Made by a program: the position numbers and the translations under genes. 64,000 bases of DNA from an uncultured Cohaesibacter sp. GTDB taxonomy: Bacteria; Pseudomonadota; Alphaproteobacteria; Rhizobiales; Cohaesibacteraceae. Below are positions 47,778 to 55,492 of this stretch, piece by piece (the stretch's first letter is position 1; the number at the start of each line of letters is the position of its first letter). The notes below the pieces were generated by a model. That model saw only the letters and a program-made list of their open reading frames with translations. It was not told the origin of the DNA and made no database searches. Location: contig NZ_OY781114.1 in NCBI RefSeq assembly GCF_963676485.1, positions 2,682,501 to 2,746,500 of the forward strand, read 5' to 3'.

Positions 47778-48491
47778 TTATTCTTCGTCATCATCCTTGG
47801 ATGAGGGCTGGAATTTGGCAAAGACCGAGGCTGCATCCGGGATGCTTTCTTCGTCATCAGCAGGCTTCTGGGTGGGCTTGAAGTTGCCGAACGGATCAGC
47901 GGCAGGCGCCAGAGATTCTTCTGGTGACAACAGGGTCGGATCCTGCTGATATTCCTGCTGGGCAGGGGCATCGGCGGCAGACTTCTTCACTTCCAGATCA
48001 AGATCAAGCTGTTTACAAATGCCCAGAGTAACCGGGTCCATCGGCGTCAGCTGGCCGGAATTCCAATGGGTCCGGTTGCGGATGGCCTCAATGGTTGGCT
48101 TGGTGGTGCCGACAAGACGCACGATCTGCTGATCTTTCAGCTCTGGATGGTTGCGCACCAGCCAGAGAATGGCATTCGGTCGGTCCTGACGCTTGGATAC
48201 AGGCGTGTAGCGTGGGCCCCGGCGTTTGGGCTCGGGCACGGTTACCTTTGGCGGAGCCAGCTTTAGCCGATATCTTGACTCATTCTGAGCTCTCTCGATT
48301 TCTTCGCGGGTCAGCTGACCCGTCATGATGGGGTCCATGCCCTTGATACCCTGGGCGGCCTCTCCATCTGCTATCGCTTTCACTTCCAGTGGATGCAATT
48401 TGCAGAAAGCAGCAATCTGATCGAAAGACAACGCCGTGTTATCGACCAGCCAAACTGCGGTTGCCTTCGGCATCAATGGTGCATTCGACAT
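47778..48491 (-). CDS. trcR: Cell-cycle transcriptional regulator TrcR (DUF1013)
   Basis: The 237-residue protein has the DUF1013 pattern: MPKATAVWLVDNTALSFDQIAAFCKLHPLEVKAIADGE at the N terminus, a central RRGPRYTPVSKRQDRPNAILWLVRNHPELKDQQIVRLVGTTKPTIEAIRNRTHWN with helix-turn-helix character, and an acidic disordered tail ending in DDDEE. TrcR is an alphaproteobacterial DNA-binding regulator linked to cell-cycle transcription. GAGGATG precedes the ATG. With rcdA it is one of two cell-cycle genes within 5 kb. Confidence 0.92.
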   Translation of the reverse strand: MSNAPLMPKATAVWLVDNTALSFDQIAAFCKLHPLEVKAIADGEAAQGIKGMDPIMTGQLTREEIERAQNESRYRLKLAPPKVTVPEPKRRGPRYTPVSKRQDRPNAILWLVRNHPELKDQQIVRLVGTTKPTIEAIRNRTHWNSGQLTPMDPVTLGICKQLDLDLEVKKSAADAPAQQEYQQDPTLLSPEESLAPAADPFGNFKPTQKPADDEESIPDAASVFAKFQPSSKDDDEE

Positions 48492-48602
48492 GGTACATCC
48501 TCATTGTAGCTTGACCGGGAATATCCTTCCAGATCAGCCTCTCAAGATTCGTTAAAATTGACAGGGAATAAAACAAGTATACTTACATTGAGACCAATGC
48601 GC

Positions 48603-48641
48603 AAACAAGAAAACGTCCCTAAGGGAGGCTTAGGGACGTTT
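48603..48641 (-). terminator. Terminator of the TadG-like gene
   Basis: On the minus strand AAACGTCCCTAAG and CTTAGGGACGTTT form a 13-bp stem with a 5-nt loop, followed by TCTTGTTTG. It lies about 30 nt after the stop. Confidence 0.85.
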
Positions 48642-48670
48642 GGGTTGGTTTTTACCCTCATTTCTCTTCG

Positions 48671-50326
48671 CTATTCAACGAGTCGGAGGTTACTCAACTC
48701 GGATGCGATATTCTGGAACACGGTGGTTAACTCGGTGGCATTGTTCACGCTTTTGTACCATTCATCCTTGCTGGCGCAGCTTTTGAGCATGTTCGCTGTC
48801 GAGATTGAGGGAGAGCCGAAGTAGATTGTGAAGATCTTTATCTTCCGGTTCTTGTCTGCAATGGCGTCCTTGGCTGCCTGGCAGGCTTCGGTGGTGCGTT
48901 TGTCCATTTCCGCCACAATTGAGGAGGAGCCGGAAATGCGACGGTCCTTAGACCAGCCATAGGCGTGATATCTGTTGGTGTAATATGTATTGTTGCCGTC
49001 CGTCATGATGATTAGCGCCTTGATATTGTCCTTGTCATCATAACCTCGGCCTTGGGTGTAAGGCGCTTGAGGCGATAGTAGGCGCAATCCCCAAATGGTG
49101 CCCATATGGATGTTGGTTGCCCCATTGGCGCGCATGGTGGAGATTTGGCGCTTAATGGCATCCGTGTCATGGGTCAACGGCATGATCCGCGGCATGTCGC
49201 ACGCATAGTTGGGGCTATAGTAAGTACCGTAATAGTAGGGCTTCTTGATCATCTGCTTGAAATAATAGCCAAAGGCCTTTCTCTCAGCATAAGTCTGGTT
49301 CCAGGCGAAGTCCTCGCGCGGCAAATAGGATACATCATTGTTCCAATCGTATTTGGTGCCGTTGCTTTTCTCATTTTTGTCCGGATAGAAGAAGGGAACA
49401 AAGTAGCTATCCGGCTCATTCTGGTTCGGTGTTGTGTCTTTGATATCGAGCGGGTGGGGGCGCGCTTCCACACAACCTTCCCATTTGAGCGGTTGACGTG
49501 TGTAGGGATCTTTGAGAGTAGCGAACAGTGCCAAGCGGTTGGATTCTTCGGGATGGTTGTAGCTATTGATCGAAGAGACACCCTTCTGATCGATCCATTG
49601 GACTTCGTTCCAACCCTTGCCATCAAGGCCATCTGTGAGGCGCACCAACTGGGTAAAGGGAACCAACCCGAAGCTCAGGGATTCTTCATCCTGTTTTTTC
49701 TTGTCAAGAATATTGATCAGGTCGGTGGAGGCGTCTCTCAGGGCGGCAATTCGGGTCTTGGAGCCTGCGTAGCTGCCCATGGAACCCGAGTTGTCCAGCA
49801 CCATGACAACTTCGAGGGTCTTGTTGCCTGCAACCGATTTCGACGTAATCGAGAAATCGATAGTGTCTATGTGAGCGAATTTCATCAGGGTCATTTCTGT
49901 TGAGCCTGATGCCCACACCTGCAGGGAGGTGGATTTGGAGGAGGATGGTGTTTGGATGTCGACCTTGTCGATGGTGATATGGCTATCTTTGGGACCGTTG
50001 GCGGCAATATAAGCCGAGATTAAGTCGGTGATTTGGCTATCACTCATCGGGCCGCCAATTTGCTTGACGGCAGCAAGGGTGGCTGCGTCCAGAGCATCTT
50101 GAGCTTCAGAGCGAGCCAAAGCGGCGCGCGCATAATCAATGGCAGCGCCAAGCATCATCATGATGGGGAGAAGAGCCAAGACGAAAATGATGGCAATCGC
50201 ACCACTCTGATCGCGCCTGAAAGAGCGCTTTGCGGCTTCCTCCTTGTCCCGTCTGCTTGATGAAGAGGTGGCAGTAAACTGCGAGCCGAGATGGCAGCGA
50301 GAAATGATGCGCGCAAAAATATGCAT
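48671..50326 (-). CDS. TadG-like von Willebrand factor A domain protein
   Basis: This 551-residue protein has an N-terminal TadE/G-like membrane segment (FRRDQSGAIAIIFVLALLPIMMMLGAAIDYARA, about 35-70) that also resembles a prepilin-type signal. The rest is largely extracytoplasmic. A vWA domain begins near residue 170 (LEVVMVLDNSGSMG, the DxSxS metal-ion-dependent adhesion site). It continues with a large Tyr/Asn/Asp-rich insert (about 280-380) and closes with ALIIMTDGNNTYYT and FTIYFG. TadG proteins accompany Flp-pilus assembly loci, but no other tad gene is in the window, so this is an orphan. A terminator follows it. Confidence 0.85.
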   Translation of the reverse strand: MHIFARIISRCHLGSQFTATSSSSRRDKEEAAKRSFRRDQSGAIAIIFVLALLPIMMMLGAAIDYARAALARSEAQDALDAATLAAVKQIGGPMSDSQITDLISAYIAANGPKDSHITIDKVDIQTPSSSKSTSLQVWASGSTEMTLMKFAHIDTIDFSITSKSVAGNKTLEVVMVLDNSGSMGSYAGSKTRIAALRDASTDLINILDKKKQDEESLSFGLVPFTQLVRLTDGLDGKGWNEVQWIDQKGVSSINSYNHPEESNRLALFATLKDPYTRQPLKWEGCVEARPHPLDIKDTTPNQNEPDSYFVPFFYPDKNEKSNGTKYDWNNDVSYLPREDFAWNQTYAERKAFGYYFKQMIKKPYYYGTYYSPNYACDMPRIMPLTHDTDAIKRQISTMRANGATNIHMGTIWGLRLLSPQAPYTQGRGYDDKDNIKALIIMTDGNNTYYTNRYHAYGWSKDRRISGSSSIVAEMDKRTTEACQAAKDAIADKNRKIKIFTIYFGSPSISTANMLKSCASKDEWYKSVNNATELTTVFQNIASELSNLRLVE

Positions 50327-50471
50327 GGCCTATCCTGTATGGGCACTCCCCCGAATGCCCTTTGGAAAAATCGCTTCTTACTAAACCGGACAGGACTTAC
50401 CAATTTATTGCAAATTGATCGCAATGGCTGGCGCGGTGACGTCTTCCTTTATTTAACGTGAATAAAAGCTT

Positions 50472-50511
50472 AAAAAGAGAGCCCTCACCACGACATGATG
50501 GTGATGAGGGC
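50472..50511 (-). terminator. Terminator of the quinone oxidoreductase gene
   Basis: On the minus strand GCCCTCATCACC and GGTGAGGGC form an imperfect stem, followed by TCTCTTTTTAAG. Confidence 0.75.
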
Positions 50512-50544
50512 ATGATCTCTGGGTGGAAAACGAGGAGCGGCCCG

Positions 50545-51540
50545 TTACAATTCCAGCATGATCTTGCCGATATGGCTTGAGCTTTCCATCAATTCGTGCG
50601 CCTTGGCGGCCTCTTCGAAGGGGAAGCGTTTGTAGATCTGCGGTTTGACCAGACCACATGAGAGCAATTGCCAGACCTCCATGCGCAGGTCTTTGGCGAT
50701 CTCTGCCTTGACGGCATCAGAGCGTGCCCGAAGGGTCGATCCGGTGTGGATGAGGCGCTTCATCATCAGGCGGCGGAAGTCTGCTTCGACGACCCCGCCA
50801 TTGAGGAATGCGATCTGGACGATGCGTCCTTCTTCTGCCGCGATGACATAGTTCTTGGAGATATAATCACCGCCGACCATGTCTAGAATGACATTCACAC
50901 CCTTGCGGTTGGTCCAGTTTTTGATCTCGGAGACGAAATCCTGCGTCTTGTAGTTGATTGCGAGATCGGCGCCCAGATCGAGGCAGGCCTGACATTTCTC
51001 TTCGCTGCCAGCTGTCACGGCAACCTTGGCACCAAAGGCCTTGCCAAGCTGAACAGCGGTAAGGCCGATGCCTGACGAGCCGCCATGCACCAGCAGGGTC
51101 TCTTCTGCGCGCAGCTTGCCGCGCTGGAAGACATTGTGCCAGACGGTGAAAATATTCTCGGGCATGCTGGCCGCTTCCGTGAAGCTCCAGCCCTTGGGGA
51201 TTTCCAGAGCACTGCCTGTGTGGGCGAGGCAATATTCCGCATAGCCCCCGCCGGAGACCAGTGCGGTGGCTGTATCGCCCACTTTCCAGTCCTTGACATT
51301 GGCGCCTACTTTCACGATTTCCCCTGCGACCTCCAGTCCCAGAATGTCTGAGGCACCCGGAGGTGGCGGATAGTTGCCCGCCCTCTGGATGCAGTCTGGA
51401 CGGTTCACACCGGCAGCCTTGACCTTGATCAGTATTTGGTCGTCTGCTGGGGTGGGGACGGGGCGGGTGATGACTTGGAGTTTTTCAGGTCCTCCCGGCT
51501 CAGAGGCGATGATGGCTTTCATTTCCGTTGCGTCCTGCAT
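50545..51540 (-). CDS. NAD(P)H quinone oxidoreductase, PIG3/zinc-less MDR family
   Basis: The product (331 residues from ATG 51540, with AGGA 6 nt upstream) is a medium-chain dehydrogenase/reductase without zinc ligands. Landmarks are VKAAGVNRPDCIQRAGNYPPPPGASDILGLEVAGEI near residue 40, the Rossmann motif LLVHGGSSGIGLTAVQLGKAFGAKVAVTAGS near 140, and GSTLRARSDAVKAEI near 270, which mark the PIG3 (TP53I3-like) quinone oxidoreductase group. It reduces quinones using NADPH. Two ATGs further upstream are possible but not better supported. Confidence 0.92.
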   Translation of the reverse strand: MQDATEMKAIIASEPGGPEKLQVITRPVPTPADDQILIKVKAAGVNRPDCIQRAGNYPPPPGASDILGLEVAGEIVKVGANVKDWKVGDTATALVSGGGYAEYCLAHTGSALEIPKGWSFTEAASMPENIFTVWHNVFQRGKLRAEETLLVHGGSSGIGLTAVQLGKAFGAKVAVTAGSEEKCQACLDLGADLAINYKTQDFVSEIKNWTNRKGVNVILDMVGGDYISKNYVIAAEEGRIVQIAFLNGGVVEADFRRLMMKRLIHTGSTLRARSDAVKAEIAKDLRMEVWQLLSCGLVKPQIYKRFPFEEAAKAHELMESSSHIGKIMLEL

Positions 51541-51787
51541 GATCATTCCTGACTGACTGGAGTTTTGTGACATTGTGTCATTTCTAGCGGATATTCTTTA
51601 TCTAGGAAATGCACTCAATGGCTTAAAGGCATTGAGCTTGAGGGCTGGTCTAATGGAGAGGGTGGATGTAGTATTCGTAGTATATATTTTTATTCGTATT
51701 TTATTTTATAATAATATTTGGATGAAATTTTGTCTGGTTGTGATTAAATTGTTTTTCTATTTAATTTATTAAAGGAAAAAAGTTTGG

Positions 51788-51811
51788 TTAACTAAAAATT
51801 AAGCATTATAT
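51788..51811 (+). promoter_or_regulatory. Candidate promoter with CtrA-type TTAA-N7-TTAA box
   Basis: TTAA (51788-51791), ctaaaaa, TTAA (51799-51802) has the exact spacing of a CtrA recognition site. It overlaps a possible -35 TTGGTT (51784-51789), with a -10 TTATAT at 51806-51811 (16-bp spacer), as in CtrA-activated promoters. Transcription would start near 51819. The whole area is AT-rich, so this is a prediction. Confidence 0.45.
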
Positions 51812-51818
51812 GCGTAAA

Positions 51819-51917
51819 TAATATTGTCCATCATTTATGGATTTCGAGTGGCTCCTGTCACTCTGTTTGACGCCTCCCTGTTAACTCCTGAGAGCCGCTC
51901 TTGCGGCTCTTTTTTTC
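51819..51917 (+). ncRNA. Candidate trans-acting small RNA with anti-Shine-Dalgarno motifs
   Basis: This transcript of about 100 nt is predicted in an 834-bp gap with no ORF of quality. It ends in a strong intrinsic terminator (AGAGCCGC 51891-51898 / GCGGCTCT 51903-51910, then seven T) that has no upstream gene on this strand to terminate. Upstream of the terminator are hairpin 1, TCCAT/ATGGA (51827-51841), and hairpin 2, GAGTG/CACTC (51846-51863), whose loop contains CTCCT. Single-stranded CCTCCC (51873-51878) and CTCCT (51885-51889) follow. Three anti-SD stretches, one looped, plus a U-tailed terminator is the design of Hfq-dependent sRNAs such as the alphaproteobacterial ar14 family; homology to that family is not claimed. 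Confidence 0.6.
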
Positions 51918-52374
51918 GCTGACTAGGTTTTATCAACCGGTATTCAGGTAATACATGACGCGTCGCTCTCCTCGCTTTCCAGGCTTTGGCAATTATGCAT
52001 TAGTAAATTTTTAACCATATGAATTAGCTGTTATTTTCTTACCGTCGGCTTTTGCTGAGATCGTGTAGAATCACGACTGTCTCATAATGGAGCTGCCTGT
52101 GTCTTGTTTTGGTGATTGCCTTGCGTGACCGGTCGGGTGGCATGCTTTGATGCAATCGGCGGGAATCGTTGGCTCCACGAGATCGTTTCTGTTAAAGTCA
52201 GCATGTTACCTGACCAAATTGGCTTGTTTTGTGCGGTCTGGGCATCTGTCAAGATTGCATTATGTCGATGGCATGGTTTGTGCTTGTTATTCTGCGAAAT
52301 GACAATTTGGTGTAATGTCTGTTTGAATTTGACACATCGGACATGGTAGGCAAGACCAGGCATTTGGAGGTCAC
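51918..52374 (+). other. Upstream region of rcdA, no gene found
   Basis: This gap has a half-site-like TTAACCAT near 52012 (CtrA sites often read TTAACCAT), a GANTC methylation motif near 52070 within TCGTG/CACGA, and TTGACA at 52329-52334. None forms a complete promoter I can defend. No ORF is convincing. Confidence 0.35.
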
Positions 52375-52923
52375 ATGAACGACAAGCGTAAGCAAACGAA
52401 TATTTCTGCTCCGGTTTCCTTTGGGGCAAAGCTTGCAGATTCCGATAGTTTTAAAACCCTGTTTCGGGATGGTATGGCGCTGGTGGAAGAAGCTGCCGAC
52501 TATCTGGACGGGGAAGGGCGCGCCGAGGCAAAGAGTTTGCCGCGGGTTGCTTCTCTTGCCTATGCTACCGAATCCATGCGGCTCACAACGCGCCTGATGC
52601 AGATGGCATCATGGTTGCTTCTGCAGCGGGCTGTAAATGAAGGCGAAATGTCGCTGGAGCAAGCCGGTCAGGAAAAGAACAAGGTGCGCCTGCATGGGCT
52701 TTCTTCTTCCAAGGATAGCCCGGGATGGGATGAACTGCCGCCGCGTCTGCGTGATCTGATCGAACAATCCATGCATATGCAGAAGCGCATCCGTCATCTG
52801 GATGAGGTTATCTATTCCAAACGCAATGCTGAAGAAACGAGAGAAGAAACCGTGCAGGCCAATCCTGTCGGTGACCAGATCGGCATGATCGCGAATGCCT
52901 TCGCAGCAAGAGCCGCCGAATAG
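52375..52923 (+). CDS. rcdA: RcdA, adaptor for CtrA degradation (DUF1465)
   Basis: This 182-residue helical protein matches the RcdA/DUF1465 family: FGAKLADSDSFKTLFRDGMALVEEAADYLDGEGRAEAKSLPR, then LAYATESMRLTTRLMQMASWLLLQRAVNEGEMS, and LPPRLRDLIEQSMHMQKRIRHLDEVIY, with a disordered tail. In Caulobacter RcdA works with CpdR and PopA to deliver CtrA and other substrates to ClpXP. GGAGG lies 5 nt before the ATG; a perfect terminator follows. It is 0.45 kb downstream of the candidate small RNA. Confidence 0.93.
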   Translation: MNDKRKQTNISAPVSFGAKLADSDSFKTLFRDGMALVEEAADYLDGEGRAEAKSLPRVASLAYATESMRLTTRLMQMASWLLLQRAVNEGEMSLEQAGQEKNKVRLHGLSSSKDSPGWDELPPRLRDLIEQSMHMQKRIRHLDEVIYSKRNAEETREETVQANPVGDQIGMIANAFAARAAE

Positions 52924-52950
52924 GCGTTCCATAGAAATTGATGAAAAGCC

Positions 52951-52980
52951 AAAAGGGGTGTCAGATTGACACCCCTTTTG
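52951..52980 (+). terminator. Terminator of rcdA
   Basis: AAAAGGGGTGTCA and TGACACCCCTTTT form a perfect 13-bp stem with a GAT loop. Confidence 0.93.
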
Positions 52981-53069
52981 TTTTGAAGCGAGACAGTGCT
53001 CCCTTTTGGTTTTTCAAAGACCCGTACATGGGGAAGAACTGCCTCATGAGAAACGTGGGCTCATAACGC

Positions 53070-53106
53070 AAAAAGAAAACCCGATGTCGGACGACATCGG
53101 GTTTTC
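53070..53106 (-). terminator. Terminator of rpmE
   Basis: On the minus strand GAAAACCCGATGTC and GACATCGGGTTTTC form a 14-bp stem with a 4-nt loop and a TTTTT tail. It lies about 30 nt after the rpmE stop. Confidence 0.9.
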
Positions 53107-53134
53107 AAATGCACAACAAATGCGGCTAGGGGGC

Positions 53135-53359
53135 TTAGGCGCCCAGGAAGCCTGCGAATTTGTCTTTGAAGCGGGAAACGCGGCCACCACGGTCCAGCAG
53201 CTGGTTGCTAGAGCCAGTCCAAGCCGGATGAGAGGTTGGATCAATGTCCAGGTTCAGGGTATCCCCTTCGGAACCATAAGTGGAGCGGGTCATGAATTCG
53301 GTGCCATCGGTCATGACAACTTTGATCGTGTGGTATTCAGGATGGATATCTTTTTTCAT
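53135..53359 (-). CDS. rpmE: 50S ribosomal protein L31
   Basis: The 74-residue product begins [22 protein letters not shown] and has the family [16 protein letters not shown] and [12 protein letters not shown]. It lacks the four zinc cysteines (C- type): where Cys would be there is Met/Ser. AAGGA precedes ATG 53359; the frame open to 53467 upstream is not translated as L31. Monocistronic. Confidence 0.96.
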
Positions 53360-53692
53360 CGTCAGGACGTCCTTAGGGTCAACCGGCCTGCAACAGGATC
53401 GCATCCTTTTGCCTGCGGCCAATCTGAATTGAGGTTCGGAATATGCCTGGCTGAAAACGGCCACCATATTCTAAGCTTCCGGTATGACACGGCCACATGG
53501 GCTTAGCGATCAAGCGGAACCAAAAAGCTAGGCTGCGGGCGGGCTAGCCACACAGCCATCAAAATAATTTGCGTTCGTATACCGCAGTGCGTTGAGTTAT
53601 ACAAGCCTGTTCCCTACTTTGAGGGTGAAAAAAGCTTATTCGTTACTCGATTTCCAGCATCTTGCATGCATTTCTTTTACTGGAGCGCCTTT

Positions 53693-55492
53693 ATGACCGA
53701 GACCAATTCCTCCTCCAGGGTCCGATTCCAGCCCTTGCGGCGTTTAGCCCCCTTTGCCTGGTCCTATCGAGGGCTCGTCTTGGCCGCTCTTGCCTCACTT
53801 GTTGTTGCGTCTTTGGCTACATTGTCTTTGCCGATTCTTGTGCGTGGATTCGTCGATCAGGGCATATCCGAGAATAACATCGCTGATGTGAACCGCTATA
53901 CCGGGTTGCTTGTTCTGGCGGTGATGGTGCTCGCGCTTATGTCTGCCAGTCGCTACTATTTCGTGATCATTCTGGGGGAGCGCGTGGTCAATGATCTGCG
54001 CGCGGCTGTTTTTGCCAAGCTGACGTTGCTCTCGCCGGAATTCTATGATCGGGTGCGCAGCGGCGAGATCGTTTCGCGTCTGACAGCGGATGCCACCCAG
54101 ATTCGCTCCGCGGTAGGGGCGTCGGCGTCGTTGGCGCTACGGAATTTTTTGTTGTTTGCCGGGGCGGCGGTTATGATGGTGGTGACCAGCCCGCGTATGT
54201 CGCTGCTGGTGCTGGGGGCGATTCCCTTCATCGTTATTCCGTTGGTGTTGCTGGGGCGCTGGGTGCGCAGGCGGCAGCGTTTTGCGCAGGATCGTTTGGC
54301 CGATAGTTCGGCCTTTGCCACGGAAGCCATCGGGGCCATGCGGATCTTGCAGTCCTTCACGCAGGAAGAGCGGGCCAAATCCACTTTCAGCAGCAATATT
54401 GAGGCCGCTTTTGGAGCCGCGCGGGCATCAGTCAGGGCACGAGCAGTGCTGACGGCTTTTGCCTTTTTCGTCATCTTCACCTCGATCGTGGCCGTTCTCT
54501 GGTATGCGGCGCATGATGTGACGGCTGGTCGGCTTTCTGCCGGTGCGCTTAGCCAATTTGTCATCTATTCCACCATGGCCGCCGCCGGTCTTGGCGGTAT
54601 GAGCGAGGTATGGGGGGAGATTTCGCAAGCCTCCGGGTCTGCCGAGCGCCTGTTTGAATTGCTCGATGAGCCGGTGCTGGTGAAAAATGCCAAAGAAGTG
54701 AGCCATCTGGCCAAGGCGTCAAACCTGTCGGTGGCCTTCGAAGGGGTGAATTTCCACTATCCTTCATCGGATAAGCGTCCCGTGCTTTCGGCGCTTTCCT
54801 TTGCCATTGCAGGCGGGGAAACTGTGGCCATTGTCGGGCCTTCCGGTGCTGGCAAGACGACGATCTTCCAGCTCCTGATGCGCTTTTATGACGCTGAAAA
54901 GGGGCGTATTCTGCTTGGCGGACAACCCATCGGACAGCTTGATCTTGCTGCCTTGCGCAGTGCGATCGCTTTGGTGCCGCAGGAGCCGGTCATTTTTGCC
55001 ATGTCGATTGCCGACAATATTGCCATGGGGCGGGAAGGGGCGCAACGCGAGGCCATTATCGAGGCTGCCCGTGCTGCCCATGCACACGACTTCATCGCGC
55101 AATTGCCCGATGGTTACGACACTATGGTCGGAGAGCGTGGAGTGACGCTTTCAGGTGGCCAGAGACAGCGCTTGGCCATTGCGCGTGCGATCCTCAAGGA
55201 CGCGCCGATCTTGCTGCTGGATGAGGCCACCAGCGCGCTGGACGCAGAAAGCGAGCGCTATGTGCAGTTGGCTCTTGCGGACCTCATGAAGGGGCGCACG
55301 ACAATTGTCATTGCCCACCGTTTGGCGACGGTGAAGAAGGCTGATCGCATTCTGGTGCTTGAAGGGGGCGCGCTGGTGGAACAGGGCACACATGATAGCC
55401 TTGTCGCTGGTGGCGGGCTCTATGCGCGTCTGGCGCAGCTTCAATTTGGCATGGATGAGCTGGATATGGATATAGAATTAGATGCCCCATGA
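53693..55492 (+). CDS. MsbA-type ABC exporter (membrane and ATPase fused)
   Basis: This 599-residue half-transporter (from ATG 53693, GGAG 8 nt upstream) has six N-terminal membrane helices (about 25-310) with coupling segments ATEAIGAMRILQSFTQEE, then an ATPase domain. The ATPase has Walker A GPSGAGKTT near 385, Q-loop LVPQEPVIF, signature LSGGQRQRLAIARA, Walker B ILLLDEATSALD and H-loop IVIAHRLATV. It functions as a homodimer. Lipid-A/lipid export (MsbA) is one possibility; multidrug or polysaccharide export are others. The stop codon overlaps a palindrome at 55481-55501. Confidence 0.9.
   Translation: MTETNSSSRVRFQPLRRLAPFAWSYRGLVLAALASLVVASLATLSLPILVRGFVDQGISENNIADVNRYTGLLVLAVMVLALMSASRYYFVIILGERVVNDLRAAVFAKLTLLSPEFYDRVRSGEIVSRLTADATQIRSAVGASASLALRNFLLFAGAAVMMVVTSPRMSLLVLGAIPFIVIPLVLLGRWVRRRQRFAQDRLADSSAFATEAIGAMRILQSFTQEERAKSTFSSNIEAAFGAARASVRARAVLTAFAFFVIFTSIVAVLWYAAHDVTAGRLSAGALSQFVIYSTMAAAGLGGMSEVWGEISQASGSAERLFELLDEPVLVKNAKEVSHLAKASNLSVAFEGVNFHYPSSDKRPVLSALSFAIAGGETVAIVGPSGAGKTTIFQLLMRFYDAEKGRILLGGQPIGQLDLAALRSAIALVPQEPVIFAMSIADNIAMGREGAQREAIIEAARAAHAHDFIAQLPDGYDTMVGERGVTLSGGQRQRLAIARAILKDAPILLLDEATSALDAESERYVQLALADLMKGRTTIVIAHRLATVKKADRILVLEGGALVEQGTHDSLVAGGGLYARLAQLQFGMDELDMDIELDAP

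Follow-up and report, generated by a model that had tools for sequence, protein, structure and literature searches.

The small RNA family RF02356 (BjrC1505) is entered in Rfam as “Alphaproteobacterial sRNA”, and the name BjrC1505 also figures in a list for Herbaspirillum in the accessible part of one source. Among rhizobial RNAs, Sm84/SmelC671 of Sinorhizobium meliloti is placed by the accessible text of the papers concerned at 2986421-2986520 (+) (PMC2873474, PMC7143759), was detected as a transcript in S. meliloti (PMC2573895, PMC2873474) and lies between SMc03988> and SMc03989> behind a putative sigma-70 promoter, with sizes of ~110 and ~80 nt that we take as the predicted and the seen one (PMC2573895). 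The SmelC671 family, with ReC71 as a relative, is described there as having a single-stranded CUCCCUGU motif, wide occurrence and extensive microsynteny (PMC3927594). In their accessible parts, the papers on Sm84/SmelC671/ReC71 (PMC2573895, PMC2873474, PMC3927594, PMC7143759) mention neither CtrA nor rcdA for the RNA. More generally, we found in the openly licensed literature no function for the family, catalogued 2008-2011, and no link of BjrC1505/RF02356 or of Sm84/SmelC671 to CtrA or rcdA.

CtrA is a master regulator of the cell cycle that can act as activator or repressor, and RcdA is an adaptor for its proteolysis. In S. meliloti, according to the accessible part of a report that does not mention the RNA there, CtrA was bound upstream of rcdA and the rcdA mRNA was unaffected (PMC4433202); a CtrA motif upstream of S. 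meliloti rcdA is also given in the accessible text of PMC3616915. Here we analyse a small RNA gene found upstream of rcdA in a 64,000-nt stretch of Cohaesibacter DNA (hereafter the window), which we read, with a probability of roughly 0.6, as an independent RF02356 sRNA gene that would be activated by CtrA and would act in trans by blocking ribosome-binding sites.

A single-copy gene of family RF02356

An Rfam search placed an RF02356 match at 51781-51916 on the + strand (92.7 bits against a cut-off of 50, E 2.1e-16, model positions 1-140), a region that takes in the promoter as well as the RNA (Table 1). The match is single-copy in this genome, and no other sRNA family scored above its cut-off in the window. 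The locus is a structure-conserved sRNA gene of an already catalogued family, with which it shares the full-length match above the cut-off, the core and the terminator. A preliminary description, made from the letters of the window, had proposed a small RNA here, which this score, the covariation and the wide conservation reported below bear out. It had also pointed to the suhB/ar14 family (RF00519), an identity that we reject because the score stayed under the cut-off (23.9 against 41 bits, at laxer settings). Like the window RNA, MmgR (suhB, RF00519) and AbcR carry an anti-Shine-Dalgarno stretch, which in suhB is a CCUCCCU shortly before the terminator. Identity with EcpR1 (SmelC291) or GspR (SmelC775), rhizobial sRNAs acting on cell-cycle mRNAs, was likewise rejected, as these RNAs map to other loci according to the accessible text on them, which also gives EcpR1 a different loop motif (PMC4414408, PMC5928217). 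CcnA of Caulobacter crescentus, described in the accessible part of its report as a 182-nt RNA at the replication origin, differs in this from the window RNA (PMC8959179).

By contrast, Sinorhizobium Sm84/SmelC671 and Rhizobium ReC71, both known as transcripts, are very probably of one kind with the window RNA, an assignment made from shared features. As far as the accessible sources describe them, these are chromosomal RNAs of ~100 nt, present in one copy, with CUCCCUGU between variable hairpins and the terminator; the same arrangement is found in the window (51874-51881) and at the Rhizobiaceae loci. Sm84 is described in its accessible source as lying on the + strand between two + strand genes, and the Rhizobium loci appear alike, the order there seeming to be a + strand upstream frame, the RNA and rcdA (a - strand frame is open too).

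The 5' end had been put near 51819; judged by eye from relatives, it lies at ~51826. The U-tailed terminator claimed at 51891-51917 was found one position earlier, and the remark that it has no plausible + strand gene to terminate agrees with the list of open reading frames, in which the + strand offers a 65-aa frame starting with GTG (51575-51772) and otherwise frames that are shorter or lie farther off. A small protein was rejected as the product: the 15-codon frame with ATG at 51837 and TAA at 51882-51884 does not seem to be kept among relatives, because their hairpin lengths, judged by eye, differ by single bases.

Table 1. Features of the RNA locus and its neighbours, in window coordinates.
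Feature	Position	Strand	Remarks
Divergent gene, presumably quinone-oxidoreductase-like	50545..51573	-	Frequent upstream neighbour
CtrA box TTAACTAAAAATTAA (TTAA-N7-TTAA)	51788..51802	+	About -38 to -24 of the start judged by eye
-10-like GTAAAT	51814..51819	+	Where relatives have TATTAC/TTTACT; by eye
Small RNA, ~91 nt	51826..51916	+	Start judged from relatives; end = T run
5' hairpin TCCAT-CATTT-ATGGA	51827..51841	+	88.0% of cells paired; 3/5 pairs changed on both sides
Second hairpin, CTCCTGT loop	51846..51863	+	100% of cells paired; 4/6 pairs double-changed; loop not universal
Core TTGACGCCTCCCTGTT, weak third hairpin	51867..51882	+	Includes near-universal CTCCCTGT (51874-51881)
Intrinsic terminator	51890..51916	+	Stem-loop with T tail
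Possible second CtrA box TTAG-N7-TTAA	52000..52014	+	One mismatch; before rcdA
rcdA (DUF1465)	52375..52923	+	PF07323 match at genome positions 2734929-2735402

Conserved fold and pyrimidine core

For the 99-nt strand 51819-51917 the folding energy is -34 kcal/mol (z -6.13), and none of 200 shuffles folds as well. Hairpins do precede the terminator, as the preliminary description had it, although three of them and not two. A covariance check, which it had proposed, backs these hairpins by compensatory change: in 39 relatives set on a four-helix structure, 95.9% of cells are paired (slid control structures pair 39-48%), and in 12 pairs both partners have changed, compared with 3.2 in shuffles (none of 500 as high), counts that are no probability because the shuffles ignore relatedness. 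The 39 rows were hand-picked as better alignable, 18 of them coming from the pattern search, and the structure was written from one relative (L033), minus a displaced base pair in the 5' hairpin. From 72 diverse rows RNAalifold recovered the terminator only, which we think is caused by misalignment of the hairpins by MAFFT. Compensatory changes maintain hairpins one and two as well as the terminator; the third hairpin, which surrounds the core, is conserved chiefly in its sequence.

All three anti-Shine-Dalgarno stretches previously pointed out are present in the window, namely CTCCT in a loop at 51852-51856, CCTCCC at 51873-51878 and CTCCT at 51885-51889, but only CUCCCUGU is near-universal. 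Many Phyllobacteriaceae carry GGAG in the first loop, which in Sneathiella reads ATCTCAT, and CTTG takes the place of the linker CTCCT in many relatives, so that both CTCCT motifs are lineage-specific. CCTCCC, thought to be unpaired in a free linker, instead sits in the loop of the weak third hairpin (97.0% of cells paired in the 39 relatives).

The 72 diverse rows, 39 of which came from the pattern search and have the core by selection, share the invariant letters GA.GCCTC.CTGT, and the 16-nt core is found within two mismatches in 57 of the 58 loci retrieved with RF02356. CUCCCUGU is maintained from Rhizobium to Sneathiella and is all that remains of the core in Rhizobium and its kin. PF07323 was detected in 109 of 111 Rhizobiaceae genomes, and the best 30 rcdA loci from these 109, fetched via rcdA alone, carry the core motif in 29 cases as CTCCCTGT, the thirtieth reading CTACCTGT. 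The core is complementary to AGGGAG-type ribosome-binding sites and more constant than a plain anti-Shine-Dalgarno sequence would need to be. At one locus (L283, ~1027-1160) it has diverged to GTTGCCTCCCATGAGACTT, with similar hairpins and terminator.

A CtrA box at the RNA promoter

A CtrA box over the -35 element is the position from which CtrA activates promoters. The TTAA-N7-TTAA box reported over the -35 is there, its placement relative to the -35 following from the start judged by eye. In a single sequence it is weak evidence, since shuffling this AT-rich stretch 1000 times produced an exact copy in 30 cases, so that the relatives decide. We sought the box at -135 to -50 of the core in 165 loci, that is, the 176 fetched minus one without a core within two mismatches, six with short upstream DNA and four duplicates. 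Of these, 104 have an exact copy and 163 one with at most one mismatch (1.4% and 14.2% in dinucleotide shuffles), loci that are not independent since they bear 75 genus labels, with 15 from the family code of the window and 36 from Phyllobacteriaceae; all 52 family labels include at least one locus with the box within one mismatch. Control spacings of 4-6 and 8-11 gave 0-7 exact boxes in the same 165 loci, and the commonest letters are GTTAAC-N6-TTAAGC. Because RF02356 itself covers the promoter (its Rfam consensus, UUUA-N7-UUAA, is one letter off the CtrA box), the fair test is provided by the 109 loci retrieved only through core and terminator; 72 of these have an exact box and 108 one within one mismatch. 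Another 65 loci, scored later out of 70, have 39 exact boxes, 20 with one mismatch, five with two and one with three; four of the five with two are alike and, at a guess, Methylobacterium-like. In the 29 motif-bearing loci among the best 30 of Rhizobiaceae the box is exact in 21, one letter off in six and two letters off in two, against 0.4% exact in mononucleotide shuffles.

The departures, with two or more mismatches in 2/165, 6/65 and 2/29 loci, count against a CtrA promoter, as does the sigma-70 promoter listed for sm84 in the accessible text of PMC2573895. Nevertheless, the CtrA link of the RNA promoter, already suspected in the preliminary description, is strongly supported at the sequence level, given that the putative site is kept within one mismatch nearly throughout and stays with the RNA where rcdA is not adjacent (see below).

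Proposed action on ribosome-binding sites

In the reading that we prefer, CtrA~P would bind TTAA-N7-TTAA over the -35 and switch the RNA gene on, and the RNA would be made when CtrA is active. The ~91-nt transcript would consist of two structural hairpins, CUCCCUGU shown in a weak loop and its own terminator, and CUCCCUGU would pair in trans with a group of mRNAs at their ribosome-binding sites, blocking their translation. CtrA binding and activation, action in trans and translational repression are the most likely interpretation; control of translation on a global scale is put forward as a hypothesis. The core mimics the anti-Shine-Dalgarno sequence of the ribosome and a weak loop would expose it, so that it is most naturally read as blocking ribosome-binding sites, the mode also proposed for AbcR and MmgR, whose anti-Shine-Dalgarno motifs are thought to pair with their targets (accessible text of the review PMC7143759).

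ACAGGGAG occurs 4-10 nt before ATG at 19 sites in the genome of the window against 3 for the control, and 4-9 nt before ATG at 105 sites in five relatives against 15. In the six genomes, 77 frames of at least 60 aa follow ACAGGGAG (one site counted twice), several of them coding by eye for transport proteins; we recognised by eye no cell-cycle regulator among the 77. No conserved target emerged from the six genomes either, the similarities consisting of three weak protein pairs between genomes, and we draw no claim about targets from these counts. This last result would suit a titration mechanism, in which the core has no mRNA seed and binds a protein or RNA instead (Hfq, another RNA-binding protein, the 30S subunit or another sRNA), and so would a 16-nt core that exceeds in length and constancy what anti-Shine-Dalgarno pairing needs. 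We nonetheless regard titration as unlikely, as Rhizobium and its kin keep of the core only CUCCCUGU, which fits pairing with AGGGAG, and the comparable motifs of AbcR and MmgR are thought, in the same review, to pair with targets.

Linkage to rcdA and independence from it

In the window, 458 nt separate the RNA terminator from rcdA. The preliminary description had named rcdA as a neighbour, and this neighbourhood is general: of the 153 loci whose downstream DNA extends for 900 nt or more (duplicates kept), 135 have rcdA in the same orientation within the next 1 kb, and among further loci 61 of 69 have it downstream in the same orientation (three or four cores misplaced). Such a position just before rcdA would suit a terminated 5' leader, an attenuator or leader-derived RNA with read-through setting rcdA expression, and gaps between RNA and rcdA of 37-60 nt in a few relatives point the same way. 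We consider this quite unlikely, because the RNA has its own terminator and, in the window, a long gap before rcdA, because some genomes have two or three RNA matches, and because rcdA often seems to have a promoter box of its own. A second exact CtrA box stands between terminator and rcdA in all 29 motif-bearing loci among the best 30 of Rhizobiaceae (0.3% in mononucleotide shuffles). Elsewhere, of 129 gaps that span 60 nt or more, 41 hold an exact box before rcdA and 65 one within one mismatch, against 0.2% and 5.1% in mononucleotide shuffles of these gaps; the other 64, with no own box within one mismatch, would fit a leader. The second box of the window is weak on its own, 124 of 500 shuffles of the 458-nt gap reaching the same match.

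The RNA gene is in fact independent of rcdA. In the 18 loci without rcdA within 1 kb (tblastn with the RcdA of the window), the box before the RNA is kept in every case (nine exact, nine with one mismatch), and a PF07323 search located rcdA 41-46 kb from the RNA in three loci (L007, L008 and L009). As the box stays where rcdA is not within 1 kb, it belongs to the RNA.

The upstream side holds, in 74 of the 143 loci with at least 1500 nt of upstream DNA, the oxidoreductase gene, and this, together with the capacity of CtrA to activate and to repress, would allow that CtrA represses the RNA or that the box serves the divergent gene, a very improbable reading given that the box precedes the RNA in nearly all loci and the gene is upstream in about half. 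Parts of the order TrcR - oxidoreductase - RNA - rcdA - rpmE - ABC transporter, seen in the window at 47778-55492, recur in L059-L176 and span many families, some outside Hyphomicrobiales (e.g. Sneathiella). Past rcdA, the window shows two terminator-like stems on the - strand (52950-52980 and 53075-53106), with rcdA upstream of both.

The CtrA-box promoter and the linkage to rcdA are the new part of this analysis and look solid as sequence facts. The conserved box and the usual position before rcdA would provide the family with a probable regulator and tie it to the cell cycle, and the RNA promoter may bear on the binding of CtrA upstream of S. meliloti rcdA without a response of the rcdA mRNA. 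More tentatively, and with more doubt than conviction, CtrA might drive both rcdA, whose product helps destroy CtrA, and the RNA, which would silence translation of CtrA-phase mRNAs, as an ancient off-switch that acts at two levels in Hyphomicrobiales and several other alphaproteobacterial lineages and a counterpart of CcnA outside Caulobacter. The S. meliloti CtrA peak upstream of rcdA would then be at least partly that of the RNA promoter, a source that we infer, because rcdA of Rhizobiaceae has its own box too.

Distribution among Alphaproteobacteria

In a class-wide sample of 385 genomes RF02356 matched 40 (17 above the cut-off); it further matched 56 of 61 relatives (52 above it) and 82 of 149 genomes of one family (code f2; 72 above it); the 14 control genomes, Caulobacter vibrioides among them, were without a match. 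Our own RNA model R1, built without the CtrA box, matched 37 of the 385 class genomes and 243 of 297 genomes of the order, in 105 of 122 genera. The genome counts of both models are lower bounds, Rhizobium-type copies being poorly caught: that of G426 scores 40.2 bits with RF02356, below the cut-off, and has no R1 match, and a query cut from it found copies in 59 of 60 genomes of the same genus code, a code that includes two genomes identifiable as Rhizobium from their plasmids. The Rfam model might therefore be widened for this type. Rhizobium-type copies (L286 at 1005-1151, L334-L353) keep the box, the 5' hairpin, CUCCCUGU and the terminator, and differ in the middle.

In the class sample, rcdA (PF07323) is present in 140 of 385 genomes and in 35 of the 37 with an R1 match, some weak ones of which may be chance (the exceptions are G001 and G086). 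At 17 rcdA loci without an R1 match, read out of 30 fetched, the best core candidate has 5-7 mismatches in all 17, and three of them have a box within one mismatch; one such locus (L261) seems by eye to hold a diverged RNA copy with box and terminator. Two or three RNA matches occur in several genomes (G378, G210 on C10 and C15, G001, G420 and G427), and in G378 (C6:79514-79860) two matches lie in tandem ~60 nt apart with rcdA downstream. The window itself begins with the end of an rRNA operon (23S and 5S, 1-1618).
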